From Chloroflexota bacterium (lineage in GTDB: Bacteria; Chloroflexota; Dehalococcoidia; Bin125): a stretch of 64,000 nucleotides of DNA. Below the pieces are notes generated by a model, which saw nothing but the letters and a program-made list of their open reading frames with translations, was not told where the DNA came from and did not search any database. Positions 3,459-45,909 of this stretch are shown piece by piece. The stretch spans positions 84,127 through 148,126 of the forward strand of contig VXQZ01000037.1 in assembly GCA_009838735.1 (NCBI GenBank), read 5' to 3'. Position 1 is the first letter of the stretch; every line of letters starts with the position of its first letter. A program made the position numbers and the translations under genes.

Positions 3459-3815
3459 GGGGACGAAAGGGTTCGACAGCGGTTGACTTCGAGCTGCTGC
3501 GTGTCGAGCTGGCGTTGCTCGCTAAACCACGCCACCACTCCCTAATTGGCGAAACCAGGGAACTCGCCCTCGCCGCCTAACCGCGGTGACGTCGCCTCTC
3601 AACCGCTGCCGAGTCGGAGAGAGCGCGGCGACGACTAACTCGGATGCCCGTCACGGGAAGTTGGGACCGCGGCGGAAAGACATTCCCACTTACCTGTTCG
3701 TAACGGTCGGCCGACGCGCCGGCGGACAGGGACAACACAAGCAACGGCTACGCACGTAGAAGCAGCTCGCGGAGACCGTCTGGACGGGGAGTTCGATTCT
3801 CCCCCGTCTCCACCA
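3459..3815 (+). ncRNA. ssrA: Transfer-messenger RNA (tmRNA), one-piece
   Basis: The 5' end GGGGACG pairs with CGTCTCC immediately before the encoded ACCA at the 3' end, forming the tRNA-like acceptor stem. A T-arm (GGGGAGTTCGATTCTCCCC) lies at 3786-3804. The internal reading frame GGC GAA ACC ... GCC TAA (3548-3580) encodes a tag ending GETRELALAA, whose hydrophobic Ala-rich end is the usual protease signal. Whether the resume codon is this GGC or a little upstream cannot be fixed by eye. About 357 nt is a normal length for a one-piece tmRNA. It acts with SmpB, encoded just upstream, to rescue stalled ribosomes and tag truncated proteins. Confidence 0.95.
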
Positions 3816-26107: not shown

Positions 26108-28450
26108 ATGCCCGACAGCCGACCCGGTCCGCTCGCCAACGTCCGCGTCATCGACCTGACTGACGATCACGCCATCTACGCGGGTAAGCTCATCGCCGAT
26201 CTCGGCGCTCAGGTCATCAGAGTTGAACCATCCGGCGGCGACCCGCTCAGGCAGCGCGGCCCGTTTCACGGCAATGGCGCATCGCTCTGGCACGCCTTCT
26301 TCGCCAGTTCCCGCGACTTCCAGATCGAGGAACCGGGATCTGTCGCCCAACTCGCCCAGTCGGCCGATATTATTCTCGACTGTGAGCGACTGAGCGATCC
26401 CGAGGGCCTGCTGGAAGCGAATCCGGGGCTCGTCATCGTCGATGTCACCTCGTTTGGTCGCTCCGGTCCCTGGCGGGACTACCAGGCGCCGGGCCTCGTC
26501 GCCGAGGCGCTGGGCGGTGTCGCCGCCACCTCAGGCGACGCCGACACGCCGCCGCTCAAGCTCTACGGGGACCAGTACGCATTCGTCGGAGGCGTGTACG
26601 CCGCCGTCGGCGCGCTGGCCGCGCTCAACCATGCCCGCGAGACCGGGCAGGGCCAGATTGTCCGTCTGAGCACCCACGAGGCGCTGGGCAGCATTCTTGA
26701 GCATGTGCTGATGTGGGCCTGGCACCACGAGATGCTTCCGTTCGCGGATGGCCCTGTGCTTCCGCGCCAGGGCTCGCTGCACTGGTCCAACGCCTACGTC
26801 GTCATGCAGGCGATCGGCGGATCGATCATGATCACGCCAACGCCCGACTTCTCCAAGCAGGTCGCCTGGCTGATCGAGGAGGGGACCGGGATGGACCTGC
26901 TGGACGAGCGCTTCAGCGATCCCGCCAATCTGGCCGAGATGATCGACCTGACCATGACCTCCCTGAGGGAGTGGGTGAGCACCAAGGAGGTCGAGCCCTT
27001 CTTCCACGAGGCCCAGGCCCGGCACCATCCATACGGCTGGGTCATGACCACGCCTGAGGTCGCGGCCAACCCGCAGCTCGATGCCCGCGACTGGTGGACG
27101 CCGTACCCCGTCGGAGATGCGATGGTGAGAGGCCCCGGCGCCCCCTACCACTTCTCCGACACCCCGTGGCGCGTCAAGAGGCTCGACGATGCTCCCACCT
27201 CCCCCTCGCAGGGGGAAGCGCCGCAGGCGGAGGGGGTCCCCCACAGCGGCCGCCGCACCACCGGACCCCTCGAAGGCATCCGCATCCTCGACTTCACCCA
27301 CGTCCTCGCCGGACCGTTCGCCACCCGCGTCCTCGCCGACATGGGTGCCGACGTCGTCAAGATCATGTCCTCGACCCGCGCCGGTCTGGCCGGCGGCGTT
27401 GACCACCCGTACCACGCGCTCTGGAACCGCAACAAGCGTGTCTTCCAGCTCGATCTCAGCCGCCAGGAGGCCCGCGACATTGCCCGCGAGCTGGCGCTCC
27501 AGGCCGATGTCGTGATCGACAACTTCTCCGTCGGCGTGCTCGACCGCTGGGGCATCGGGTACGACGCGGTCAGCCCCGACAATCCCGGCGTCATCTACAT
27601 CGGCATGTCCGGCATGGGCACGTCCGGTCCCTGGTCGAAGTACGTCACCTACGCACCGACCGTCCACGCACTTGCCGGCCTGACCTACCTCACCGGCGTG
27701 CCCGGGCGCAACGACATCGGCATCGGTTTCAGCTACAACGACCACATGGCCGGCCTGCACGGCGCAGTCGCCGTGCTCGCCGCGCTCGAAGGCCGTCGAC
27801 TGACCGGCCGCGGCCAGCGGATCGACATGAGCCAGTTCGAGGTCGGCGTCAACTTCGGCGGCCCGGCCTTGCTCAACTGGTTCGCCAACGGCGTCGCTGC
27901 CGAGCCGGTCGGCAACGACCCACCCTGGGAGTCGTGGACCCCGCACGCGATCTACCGTTGTCGGGGAGAGGATCGGTGGTGCGCGATCGCAGTCATCGAC
28001 GATGAGCAGTGGAACTCGTTATGTCGGCTGATGCAGGCCGACGACTGGCTCAACGACAACGCAATGGCCACGGTCCAAGGACGAGCAGCCAGAAGGGGCG
28101 AAATCGACGGCCGCATCTCTCAATGGACGGCCGCCCAGGATCGTTACGAGCTCATGCAGCGCTGCCAGCAGGCCGGAGTTCCCGCCGGAGTCGTCCAGAC
28201 CGGCGACGACCTCATCAACCGAGACCCGCAGCTCGCCGAGGCCAACATGCACTTCGCCTACGACGACCCTCATCCCGACCTCGGCCCGCTCAAAGCCGAC
28301 CGGCTGGCGCTGCGCTTTGAGAAGACCCCCGCAACCGTCTACAGCCGCTCCGAGGTCTACGGAGAATCCAACCTCTCCGTCGCCGCCGACTGGCTGGGAA
28401 TGTCGGCAGATAAGGTGGCTCGCCTCGAAGCCGAAGGCGTCGTGGAATAA
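26108..28450 (+). CDS. Class III CoA-transferase with two CaiB/BaiF domains in one chain
   Basis: Class III transferases move CoA between carboxylic acids. Each half of this 780-residue protein is one CaiB/BaiF domain: about residues 5-360 (GPLANVRVIDLTDDHAIYAG, DLGAQVIRVEPSGGDPLRQR) and about 390-780 (LEGIRILDFTHVLAGPFATR, LADMGADVVKI). The catalytic Asp is expected at the ALNHARETGQGQIVRLS region in the first half and the equivalent segment (RRLTGRGQRIDMSQFE) in the second. The N-terminal half has degenerate positions (LTDDHAIYAGKLIAD) and may be structural. The linker of about 25 residues (DAPTSPSQGEAPQAEGVPHS) is encoded by a palindromic repeat. Normal family members have one 400-residue domain and dimerise. 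Confidence 0.93.
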   Translation: MPDSRPGPLANVRVIDLTDDHAIYAGKLIADLGAQVIRVEPSGGDPLRQRGPFHGNGASLWHAFFASSRDFQIEEPGSVAQLAQSADIILDCERLSDPEGLLEANPGLVIVDVTSFGRSGPWRDYQAPGLVAEALGGVAATSGDADTPPLKLYGDQYAFVGGVYAAVGALAALNHARETGQGQIVRLSTHEALGSILEHVLMWAWHHEMLPFADGPVLPRQGSLHWSNAYVVMQAIGGSIMITPTPDFSKQVAWLIEEGTGMDLLDERFSDPANLAEMIDLTMTSLREWVSTKEVEPFFHEAQARHHPYGWVMTTPEVAANPQLDARDWWTPYPVGDAMVRGPGAPYHFSDTPWRVKRLDDAPTSPSQGEAPQAEGVPHSGRRTTGPLEGIRILDFTHVLAGPFATRVLADMGADVVKIMSSTRAGLAGGVDHPYHALWNRNKRVFQLDLSRQEARDIARELALQADVVIDNFSVGVLDRWGIGYDAVSPDNPGVIYIGMSGMGTSGPWSKYVTYAPTVHALAGLTYLTGVPGRNDIGIGFSYNDHMAGLHGAVAVLAALEGRRLTGRGQRIDMSQFEVGVNFGGPALLNWFANGVAAEPVGNDPPWESWTPHAIYRCRGEDRWCAIAVIDDEQWNSLCRLMQADDWLNDNAMATVQGRAARRGEIDGRISQWTAAQDRYELMQRCQQAGVPAGVVQTGDDLINRDPQLAEANMHFAYDDPHPDLGPLKADRLALRFEKTPATVYSRSEVYGESNLSVAADWLGMSADKVARLEAEGVVE
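27199..27242. repeat. Palindromic repeat embedded in the CoA-transferase coding sequence
   Basis: CTCCCCC-TCGCA-GGGGGAAG followed by CGCCGCAGGCG and GAGGGGGTCCCCC. This is the same two-part design as the intergenic copies at 19699 and 36881. It lies exactly at the junction of the two CaiB/BaiF domains and is read through in frame as a Ser/Pro/Gly/Glu-rich linker. Confidence 0.8.
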
Positions 28451-28903
28451 TTCGTCTGCGTCCTCCTTTCTGTCGCTGTCGATTGCCGGTTTCAGGTTTT
28501 CGCTCTACTTTTTTTCTGACGGGCTGAGCGGTTCGATCTCCCGTGTTGTACTGGGTTTCGTGTTCCAGGTCTTTCAGCTTTTTTCAGGTCTTTTAGGTTG
28601 TTTCGGCGCACCTGATGGGGGAGATTCGTTCTGGAGCGTTCGGATCTGTTCGGCTGCGTTCGGTCGGATCCTTGAGGTGGTGGTGGCGTCGGTTGGGAGG
28701 GCGAATGTACGCATGGGCCTGTGCTCTCGGCTGCATAATGTCGAACGGATAATCTCATCCTATTGGGAGGCGGCCGGGCCGAGCCTTCGACTGGCGTAAC
28801 CGCCTTTACGGAATGTGTCGGCACTGCTCGGACCCTCCCGGTGACACCCATTGCAGCGCTTGTGTTCTCCCAGGGGGGCAGCCCCGGTGCCCGATCAGGC
28901 GAG

Positions 28904-43686: not shown

Positions 43687-43754
43687 TCCCCGCCCCTTCC
43701 TCCCTTCGCTACCCTCAAGAGAGAACGTATGTACTGCCAGAAAGCGAGCCACCC

Positions 43755-44543
43755 ATGAACCCCGCCAAACGAGCCAAGCGACTCCAGGCCCACAGCCTCC
43801 GCTGCCAGGGCCTCACCTACCGACAGATCGGAGAGCGCATGCGCTGCGCTCACTCCACCGCCGCCAGGTACGTCCGCGACTTCGAGGCGAACCGAGCCGA
43901 GATCATGGAATCCCTCGCCGCCGACCTGCTCGTCCACTCCGTCGCCAACCTCCAGACCCCCGACCCCGACCTCCACGCCCAGCACATCAACGCCGCCCGA
44001 GAACTCCGCCTGCTCGTCAACTCCCTCGATCAGGTCGAAGACCGCCGCCAGAAGCGCCAACGCCGGGTCGCCATGGAAGAGGAAGCCGACGCCCTCAAGA
44101 ACATCCAGGCCCTCGAGGACCTCGTCGTGACGATGCACGAGAACGGCATCGACGACATGACCCCCTACCTCGCCGACCAGGGAGCCTTCCGCACCGAACA
44201 CGTCACCCAACCTCCGCTCTCCCCCCGCGCAGCGGGGGGAGATGCCGAAGGCAGAGGGGGGGCCCTACTTTCTCAACCCCTACACTCGCCACTCCAACCC
44301 CAGCCAACCTCGTCCAACCACAACCCAGGTCCGCACACCAACCGACCAAATCCGCACAAAATCGTCCAAAATCGAACAACACCGACCAAGATCCCCCACA
44401 ATCCCCCGCGAAACACGCCGAATCCCGCCCAAACGCCCGAAAACAGCAGCTATCCGGTCTCCAGTTCACCACTCCCGAGCCCCTGCCCAAGCCCAGTAAC
44501 CGCCGCTATCTCGGCACCGACCCCACCGTCCGCCGAGTCTTAG
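43755..44543 (+). CDS. HTH protein (terminase-small-subunit-like), C-terminus disrupted by a repeat
   Basis: The first about 150 residues look like a real protein: a homeodomain-like HTH (RAKRLQAHSLRCQGLTYRQI, then GERMRCAHSTAARYVRDFEA) and a helical part (LRLLVNSLDQVEDRRQKRQR ... NIQALEDLVVTMHENGIDDM), similar in style to phage terminase small subunits. From about residue 155 the frame runs through a palindromic repeat (44217-44264) and then AC-rich DNA, giving a low-complexity tail that ends in a TAG at 44541. A different frame (from about 44267) reads TFSTPTLATPTPANL and finishes LGTDPTVRRVLGDWIRP at a TGA, 44561-44563, a more natural end. I infer a frameshifting insertion. Confidence 0.6.
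   Translation: MNPAKRAKRLQAHSLRCQGLTYRQIGERMRCAHSTAARYVRDFEANRAEIMESLAADLLVHSVANLQTPDPDLHAQHINAARELRLLVNSLDQVEDRRQKRQRRVAMEEEADALKNIQALEDLVVTMHENGIDDMTPYLADQGAFRTEHVTQPPLSPRAAGGDAEGRGGALLSQPLHSPLQPQPTSSNHNPGPHTNRPNPHKIVQNRTTPTKIPHNPPRNTPNPAQTPENSSYPVSSSPLPSPCPSPVTAAISAPTPPSAES
44217..44264. repeat. Palindromic repeat inside the HTH gene
   Basis: CTCTCCCCCC-GCGCA-GCGGGGGGAG followed by ATGCCGAAGGCAGAGG and a G-run, the standard member of the GCCGAAGGC family. It lies where the HTH protein loses its natural reading frame. Confidence 0.85.
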
Positions 44544-44574
44544 GCGACTGGATTCGCCCTTGACCCACCCCGGC

Positions 44575-44586: not shown

Positions 44587-45909
44587 ATGGCACACGCGAC
44601 CAGGCGCAATCCGCAATCCGAACCTGACATGCTCGGCTCCCGCAGCATGTTCGACGACGCCCGCACCGTCGACCGTTCGGCGCCCCTCGCCGCCCGGATG
44701 CGGCCCCGCAATCTCGACGAGATCGTCGGCCAGACCCAGCTCGTCGGACCGGACGCCCCGCTGCGCCGGGCGATCGAGTCCGACTCGCCGCCATCCTGCA
44801 TCCTCTGGGGACCGCCCGGCAGCGGCAAGACATCGATCGCCCGGGTCGTCGCCCGCGTCACCAACACCCGCTTCGCCACGCTCTCGGCCGTCTCCAGCGG
44901 CGTCGCCGACCTGCGCAAGGTCATCGCCTCGGCCGAGGCCGGACGCCGCGACGGCCTCGCCCGCACCATCCTCTTCATCGATGAGATTCATCGCTTCAAC
45001 AAGTCCCAGCAGGACGCTCTTCTGCATGCAGTCGAAGACGGAGCGATCACCCTGATCGGCGCAACGACGGAGAACCCATCCTTCGAGGTGGTCCCTCCAT
45101 TGCTCAGCCGAGCCCGGGTGTTCAAGCTTGAACCCCTCGATGTGCAGGACCTCAAGGCGCTCCTGATCCGCGCCCTCAACGACACCGACCGTGGATTGGC
45201 CCCGGATCCACCGTTGGTGGAGCCGGATGCCATTGACGCGCTCGCAACTTACGGGTCCGGCGACGCCCGCGTCGCACTCAATGCGCTTGAAGCCGCCGTC
45301 CGCGACGCCCGATCACGAAACGGCCCGGTCACTGTCGACACGGTCCAGAGCGTCGCGCAGCGTGCGCTGCCCTACGACAAGGGCGGCGACGCCCACTTCG
45401 ACACCATCTCCGCATTCATCAAGTCGGTCCGCGGCTCCGATCCCGACGCCGCCGTCTACTGGCTCGCCCGCATGCTCGAGGCCGGTGAGGACCCAATGTT
45501 CGTCGCCCGCCGCATCGTCATCCTCGCTGCCGAGGATGTCGGCCTCGCCGATCCCCGGGCGCTATCCGTCGCCGTCGCCGCCCAGCAGGCCACCCACCTG
45601 ATCGGCATGCCCGAGTGCACCCTGGTTCTCTCCGAAGCAGCGATCTACCTGGCCCGCGCGCCCAAGAGCAACTCCGCCATGAAGGCCTACAGCGCCGCCA
45701 GCGCCGCCGTTCGTGAACGCGGCGCGCTCTCCGTCCCGCTCCATCTGCGCAACGCCGCCACCGGTCTCATGGCCGCCCACGGCTACGGCCGCGGATATCA
45801 ATACGCCCACGATCACGAAGGCGGCGTCGCCCCTGACCAACAACATCTGCCCGACGAACTCAGCGGCGCCGCCTTCTACGAGCCCGGCGAGAGGGACGTC
45901 ACGCCATGA
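44587..45909 (+). CDS. rarA: Replication-associated recombination protein RarA (MgsA/WRNIP1 family)
   Basis: RarA is a clamp-loader-like AAA+ ATPase acting at stalled replication forks. The 440-residue protein has LAARMRPRNLDEIVGQTQLV (about residues 35-54), Walker A GPPGSGKT (residues 75-82), Walker B LFIDEIHRFNKSQQDALLHA, sensor 1 IGATTENPSFEVVPPLLSRA and the C-terminal tetramerisation part (GGDAHFDTISAFIKSVRGSD, ILAAEDVGLADP, IYLARAPKSNSAMKAYSAA). The ATG at 44587 agrees with family starts. The following small gene overlaps its stop by 4 nt. Confidence 0.96.
   Translation: MAHATRRNPQSEPDMLGSRSMFDDARTVDRSAPLAARMRPRNLDEIVGQTQLVGPDAPLRRAIESDSPPSCILWGPPGSGKTSIARVVARVTNTRFATLSAVSSGVADLRKVIASAEAGRRDGLARTILFIDEIHRFNKSQQDALLHAVEDGAITLIGATTENPSFEVVPPLLSRARVFKLEPLDVQDLKALLIRALNDTDRGLAPDPPLVEPDAIDALATYGSGDARVALNALEAAVRDARSRNGPVTVDTVQSVAQRALPYDKGGDAHFDTISAFIKSVRGSDPDAAVYWLARMLEAGEDPMFVARRIVILAAEDVGLADPRALSVAVAAQQATHLIGMPECTLVLSEAAIYLARAPKSNSAMKAYSAASAAVRERGALSVPLHLRNAATGLMAAHGYGRGYQYAHDHEGGVAPDQQHLPDELSGAAFYEPGERDVTP

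Follow-up and report, generated by a model that had tools for sequence, protein, structure and literature searches.

The window, a stretch of 64,000 nucleotides, lies in a 3.15-Mb genome (G000) that is assembled in 56 contigs and is 96.6% complete. On its forward strand, where all features of this locus lie, an open reading frame at 43755-44543, closed by a TAG at 44541-44543, encodes a helix-turn-helix (HTH) protein of an HTH_23 family that exists in multiple copies in a lineage of uncultured Chloroflexota. The frame opens with an intact head (43755-44207, a helix-turn-helix followed by a long helix), passes through a REP-like double-hairpin palindrome at 44217-44262 (CTCTCCCCCCGCGCAGCGGGGGGAGATGCCGAAGGCAGAGGGGG, read as PLSPRAAGGDAEGRGG in the HTH frame) and finishes in an out-of-frame tail of 92 amino acids (44265-44543). 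A natural C-terminal tail, homologous to intact tails and probably drifting, occupies frame +2 at 44264-44563 and ends in RRYLGTDPTVRRVLGDWIRP, directly followed by a TGA at 44561-44563. The same DNA contains a 10-nt phased array of the unit CGNNCANNNN (44311-44392), recognized by its lag-10 identity, and a GAACGTATGTAC box, a possible operator of the HTH gene, is found upstream at 43723-43734. The downstream gene, rarA (44587-45909; MgsA_C, 1e-63), served as synteny anchor: the order mutS2 (named via TIGR01069), a 209-aa gene, the HTH gene, rarA and a 114-aa gene is common to the window and the loci L101, L103 and L104, and the homolog L002 is located in L101.

The head matches PF13384 (HTH_23) with an E-value of 2.1e-6 and 27.8 bits, above the curated cut-off of 24.6, which places it in that family. 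An N-terminal helix-turn-helix is what the gene shares with HTH_23 proteins; nothing fuller was obtained from NCBIfam (no family at E<=0.01) or from a Foldseek search of the PDB, where a fold-based assignment was dropped for want of a match at E<=0.001. Among sequences of solved structures the best match was 2lvs (E 3.5e-6, over 32 residues). The AlphaFold2 model of the head has a mean pLDDT of 83.8 and helices at residues 3-17, 22-28, 33-45, 47-67, 71-129, 136-140 and 144-149, and dN/dS in the head is 0.24-0.49 in all six pairs of four genes.

The genome of the window has 10 copies of this gene family; within the genus, members occur in 10 of 15 genomes, and within the taxonomic family in 12 of 20. 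We collapsed 81 overlapping loci with heads, by their first 150 nt, into 56 distinct family genes, three of them open-ended; these are a subset of the known members, the genus having further places. One further copy in the genome of the window (L068, G000:C20:20403-20741) is flagged with two TAA stops. Among the papers listed on palindromes, REP/RAYT, phased repeats and Chloroflexota HTH proteins, none described the family, and searches with the repeat strings themselves gave no match. A phage origin was rejected, since neither viral contigs (queried with a single protein) nor phage records contained a relative; in a test for terminase small subunits, phrog_7067 matched 4 of 28 members (best 0.0041), and Terminase_5, described as an ATPase-subunit family, matched 7 of 28 (best 0.00089). 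A known RNA was rejected as well: at the gathering score the sole Rfam match in the window is a tmRNA gene (RF00023) at 3459-3815, and a scan of eight loci that contain solitary arrays or HTH genes yielded one match at E<=0.5, which scores far under its gathering threshold.

An earlier note on this DNA had described a reading frame that runs through a repeat and AC-rich DNA to a stop at 44541, and a second frame that reads on to a coherent end and stops at 44561-44563 just before rarA; it took the locus to be an HTH gene with its natural tail in another frame. All of this agrees with what we find. When the +2-frame peptide (44264-44560) was compared with the tails of six close intact homologs (L002, L003, L004, L005, L012 and L013), the scores corresponded to z = 6.5 to 22, and none of 500 shuffled peptides reached the score in any of the six comparisons. 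The HTH-frame tail gave z = 0.9 to 4.4 and the third frame z = 1.0 to 3.4. The HTH frame is nominally unusual in places (1 of 500 shuffles for L003, 3 of 500 for L002), and such scores in these two frames fit shared composition and repeats. The +2-frame scores therefore identify the coherent end as a real homologous tail, beyond chance. Frame +2 is free of stops across the whole gene, and its homology to intact tails is clear from about 44312 (VQPQP...).

Each of the six close homologs reads in a single frame from the HTH start through to the C-terminal end, and the HTH frame of all six closes in a C-terminus of the RLF or KLF type, with a W three residues behind it in four (L002, L005, L012 and L013), as in the LGDW of the window. 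Homologs that end with the tail of the HTH frame, or that lack an end like LGDWIRP, had been named beforehand as observations that would speak against a displaced tail; among the remaining C-termini listed for the 56 distinct genes, none resembles the HTH-frame tail of the window by eye. We consider it likely that a lineage-specific frameshift has affected one member of a multi-copy HTH family, freeing the C-terminal tail and leaving the DNA-binding head intact. The frameshift is carried by only one sequence, which is known from an assembly of 56 contigs.

The frame is lost between 44253 and 44311. From the AGA of the palindrome to a downstream GTC, the window has 59 nt and the paralog L012 has 60 nt; the frame offset is 0 in both at the AGA, and at the GTC (44312) it is 2 in the window versus 0 in L012. 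The tail of L012 contains the same palindrome sequence, read as in the window, and L012 remains in frame. The palindrome alone is therefore not sufficient for the shift, and the sequences give no proof of the proposal in the earlier note that the repeat had shifted the gene. Insertion of the palindrome may still have caused the shift, given that no palindrome-free copy of the locus was seen from the same genome. Both the insertion and a later indel are possible causes, the intervening sequence being too diverged for the exact event to be named. Expansion of the G-run at the palindrome end was dropped as a single cause, because the interval in the window is already one base shorter than in L012.

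Palindromes of this kind are not confined to the window gene. The genome contains 62 matches to the window palindrome at E<=1, many of them both strands of one copy, and 28 matches span 41 bases or more. Of the 56 distinct genes, 15 have a tail hairpin of at least 8 bp, compared with a mean of 1.1 and a maximum of 3 in shuffles, and 20 have a GC-rich one of at least 7 bp (shuffles: mean 5.5, maximum 10, so that about a quarter of the 20 may be due to chance). In the first set, the C-terminal motif lies in the HTH frame in 11 genes, out of frame in one, which is the window, and was not found in three; in the second set the corresponding numbers are 14, one (again the window) and five, the five including L003, missed by the regular expressions but judged by eye to be in frame. 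The C-termini had been inspected before the motifs were defined. Palindromes are common in the tails of this family and are mostly tolerated in frame where this can be judged. A single palindrome type is read as PLSPRAAGGDAEGRGG in the window and L012, as SPPAERGEMPKAEGG in L130 and as SPPAPRGEMPKAEGG in L007. In another family gene (L132, G011:C24:82600-84400), six copies of the palindrome GCCCCGCGCCCCGACGCGGGGC lie in one open frame as a coding repeat.

Two known classes of repeat offer themselves for comparison. Rickettsia palindromic elements (RPEs) are described as palindromic repeats of about 150 bp inside open reading frames, translated in frame and with a conserved peptide (PMC10969869). 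The tails of the HTH family, the one family for which palindrome insertion in genes was examined, resemble them in having short palindromic repeats inside open reading frames that are translated in frame. Unlike the RPEs so described, the family palindromes are about 20-46 bp long, comprise several sequence types and are read in frames that differ between genes. The host frame of an RPE continues across the element, whereas the native tail of the window lies out of frame, and in place of a conserved element peptide the reading changes with the gene, as in PLSPRAAGGDAEGRGG versus SPPAERGEMPKAEGG or SPPAPRGEMPKAEGG. REP/REPIN sequences are small GC-rich palindromes with many copies per genome, sometimes inside genes (PMC3733652); the 28 matches of 41 bases or more are comparable in being many dispersed palindromic copies. 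REP/REPIN systems are accompanied by a RAYT transposase, whereas Y1_Tnp (PF01797, RAYT) has no match in the genome of the window and was found in 5 of 14 control genomes; a RAYT-driven REP was rejected on this ground. The window repeat also differs from REP/REPIN in that neither GTAG nor CGTC is found in its sequence.

The earlier note held that the AC-rich stretch of the tail lacks T and so has no stop in any frame. The segment 44264-44540 is indeed T-poor and 74% A+C, but 33 of its 277 positions are T, and the third frame meets a stop at 44497. Among 2000 dinucleotide shuffles of this segment, 36% had no stop in the HTH frame (P 0.36) and 1.6% had none in all three frames. That the HTH frame stays open over 92 residues is therefore expected by composition. 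Because this frame is open, a chimeric product is possible, as far as can be told from the DNA; the protein would still be made and would consist of the HTH domain, the long helix and a meaningless tail of 92 amino acids. One could also suppose that selection now maintains the new tail after co-option. Its 92 open codons would suit this idea, and a new constraint would likewise produce fast change in the old frame; yet composition accounts for the openness, and no second sequence with this tail exists among the 56 distinct genes, so that we regard co-option as very improbable.

If the natural tail has been released from its reading frame, its rate of change is informative. In three-taxon counts over 93 tail codons, the window had 62 changes versus 22 in L002 with L012 as outgroup (P 1.3e-5) and 62 versus 24 in L012 with L002 as outgroup (P 4e-5); the intact pair L002 and L012 stood at 22 to 24 (P 0.77). 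Hand-anchored ungapped blocks (47 codons) gave 21 for the window versus 5 for L002 (P 0.002) and 21 versus 9 for L012 (P 0.03). By these counts, the displaced tail has evolved at 2.3 to 4.2 times the rate of intact ones. In the head (151 codons) the window had 24 changes versus 32 in L002 (P 0.29, outgroup L012) and 24 versus 24 in L012 (outgroup L002). Tail dN between the window and three intact copies is 0.39-0.43, compared with 0.11-0.21 among those three. All six intact close homologs have the basic motif RPPVQAPPRPKRKK or a slightly altered version of it; in the window it is not recognizable.

The choice of outgroup affects the size of this excess. Taking L013 as outgroup raises the tail excess (to 70 versus 18 and 68 versus 18) and also makes the window head appear fast relative to L012 (42 to 11, P 2e-5); with L002 as outgroup, the tails of the intact pair L012 and L013 are themselves uneven (50 to 13, P 3e-6). 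The rate tests are in this way disturbed by an apparent exchange of sequence between paralogs. The palindrome type and the N-terminal DNA group by genome and not by locus, L002 with L013 and the window with L012. This clustering, together with the uneven rate tests, looks like exchange between paralogs within one genome. Four-way unique counts (tail, 93 codons: window 56 versus 12, 12 and 5; head, 151 codons: window 20 versus 16, 4 and 17) and a first block test (window 18 versus 4, 4 and 3; tail versus head P = 0.001) agree in direction with the three-taxon counts but overstate the excess on account of such apparent exchange. An even spread of changes over codon positions was dropped as proof of drift, since in the tail the window (23/16/23) and intact L012 (8/7/9) are equally even. 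Nonsynonymous/synonymous ratios of the window tail did not differ from those of the others (P 0.46 and 1.0). As neither of these measures discriminates, the case for drift rests on rate.

The rate excess and the lost basic motif argue against two other accounts of the shift. One is a sequencing or assembly error, in which an indel artefact near the G-run of a high-copy palindrome conceals a real gene that is intact. The window palindrome ends in G7 and 18 of 19 readable copies end in G6 (20 of the 28 long matches were fetched, of which 19 could be read), and the base count comes from the assembly alone. An error at a single site, however, would not raise the rate over the tail that follows and would not erase a conserved basic motif, and removing one G would still not give an intact frame, since the interval in the window is one base short of that in L012. 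We consider such an error unlikely. The other account is programmed frameshifting or transcriptional slippage at the G-run, joining head and tail so that both frames are used. The G7 run stands at the palindrome end and both frames are open, as this would require; a programmed shift would, however, conserve the downstream frame as protein, and here the displaced tail changes 2.3 to 4.2 times faster than intact tails and has lost its basic motif. All six close homologs, moreover, need no shift. Little credence is given to this mechanism. The frameshift is thus probably real, with a natural tail that is drifting. It looks like ordinary decay of one copy, and the part worth a second look is the link between the HTH genes and the phased array, or ladder, in their tails.

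In the window, CGNNCA cores of the ladder begin at 44311, 44332, 44343, 44353, 44363, 44373 and 44383, and lag-10 identity reaches 0.68 in the best 60 nt, a value that none of 200 dinucleotide shuffles attained. We tested 26 family tails in this way, leaving out L008, whose tail is too short. Lag 10 was the highest of the eight lags from 7 to 14 in 19 of the 26, and its identity was reached by no shuffle out of 200 in 13 tails and by at most 9 in 22. It was not the strongest lag in seven (L002, L016, L018, L019, L021, L023 and L030); in L016 the array precedes the stretch scanned for lags, and in L018, L019, L021, L023 and L030 lag 9 or 12 was strongest. Such tails are low-complexity, and one may ask whether the periodicity is a mere peptide repeat, rich in Lys, Arg, Pro and Asn, with no feature at the DNA level. 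The modest lag-10 identity of L012 and L002 (0.50-0.54) and the tails with a stronger lag 9 or 12 would suit this account. A simple peptide repeat would, however, have a period divisible by three, which ten is not; the ladder of L008 (G014:C1), roughly 500 nt from the start of the HTH gene, lies beyond the HTH stop codon, with a lag-10 identity of 0.76; and strict units occur at sites without an HTH head, with reversed-pattern controls at 0. A peptide repeat is thus quite unlikely to be the whole explanation. The ladder of L008, in another genome, is built of about 11 TTGGACANNN units around another core word (GGACA).

The strict double unit CGAACARAWYCGAACA has 55 matches with at most one mismatch in the genome of the window (reversed control 0), and the strict form (CGAACA) has 37 sites there. 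The ladder of the window gene itself is a loose member: within one mismatch the strict double unit does not match it, and a 14-base form of the unit does so only when two mismatches are allowed, in which case the window holds 6 matches versus 1.6 expected. Most strict sites in this genome have no HTH head nearby; at least two of them lie at the ends of contigs C1 and C31 and resemble the tails of family genes, apparently with the heads off the contig. Among the 22 of 37 strict sites that were inspected with their DNA (loci covering 30 of the 55 matches), seven have a GAAC box upstream and eight have two or more CTGAAA downstream. One solitary ladder lies in the window itself: an intergenic element at 28440-28760 on the reverse strand has a CGAACA ladder (match 28638-28651) and CCTGAAA-type repeats, with no HTH head. 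The genome has comparable elements at other places (L034, L038, L045, L050, L051 and L052), and in some of these a GAAC box precedes the element and a GCAAAACAC hairpin is present.

A strict triple unit was found in 12 of the 20 family genomes, with a control of 0 in each. HTH genes and strict triple arrays occur together in 11 of these genomes; one (G018) has the HTH gene only, one (G007) the array only, and seven have neither (Fisher P 0.0008, ignoring the relatedness of the 20 genomes). In G017, four of seven array places among those listed follow an HTH head on the same strand at a distance of no more than 500 nt.

Centromere and replication-iteron systems, such as parC/ParR, are arrays bound by HTH or RHH proteins. 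The ladders resemble them in consisting of direct repeats of about one helical turn that adjoin, or lie inside, the gene of a candidate binding protein, and differ from them in being chromosomal, present many times per genome and partly inside coding sequence. It seems possible that the HTH proteins bind the ladders and that the 3' coding region doubles as one. The HTH protein and its paralogs would bind 10-bp phased CGNNCA/CGAACA ladders at their own 3' ends and at solitary sites, with one protomer per helical turn, on one unit each. A broader reading, which we put forward as tentative and somewhat doubtful, is a chromosomal self-marking DNA-binding system in Dehalococcoidia-like Chloroflexota, in which the 3' ends of HTH genes would be phased CGNNCANNNN binding ladders, accompanied by many solitary intergenic ladders, some under GAACNNATGTNC boxes, and in which this DNA would be read as a basic tail in whichever frame and so survive frameshifts. 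Under such self-marking, the window would be a case where the ladder stays while the protein tail drifts. With a unit length indivisible by three and little T, the ladder rarely puts a stop in the way of a shifted frame, and a broken copy can read on for 92 codons. Indels and palindromes may be tolerated in the tail region because the head matters more as protein sequence and a T-poor ladder has few stops in any frame.

The frameshift is in this respect a natural test, in which the protein reading is lost and the DNA ladder is kept, and the window copy separates selection at the protein level from possible selection at the DNA level. If the ladders are binding sites of the HTH family, the coding sequence would at the same time serve as a phased binding array, an unusual form of dual coding, and an explanation would be at hand for dozens of elements in these genomes. 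The C-termini of such genes are easily mis-annotated.

The first half of the GAACGTATGTAC box upstream of the window gene resembles the LexA/Cheo box, and its second half reads GTAC, not GTTC, one base off. The lexA gene of the same genome has GAACGGACGTTC upstream, a full GAAC-N4-GTTC; no full box was present in the recA locus scanned. The pattern GAACRYATGTNC, drawn up after such boxes had been seen, has 15 matches in the genome (reversed control 0), of which three precede HTH heads (window, C40 and C36) and three precede solitary arrays. Besides further family genes and solitary arrays, small multi-copy genes of other kinds also have the box in front of them. Other small genes, in similar pairs at L114, L117, L118 and L125, start directly behind a GAACATATGTAC box, which suggests that they and the HTH genes may belong to one shared regulon.
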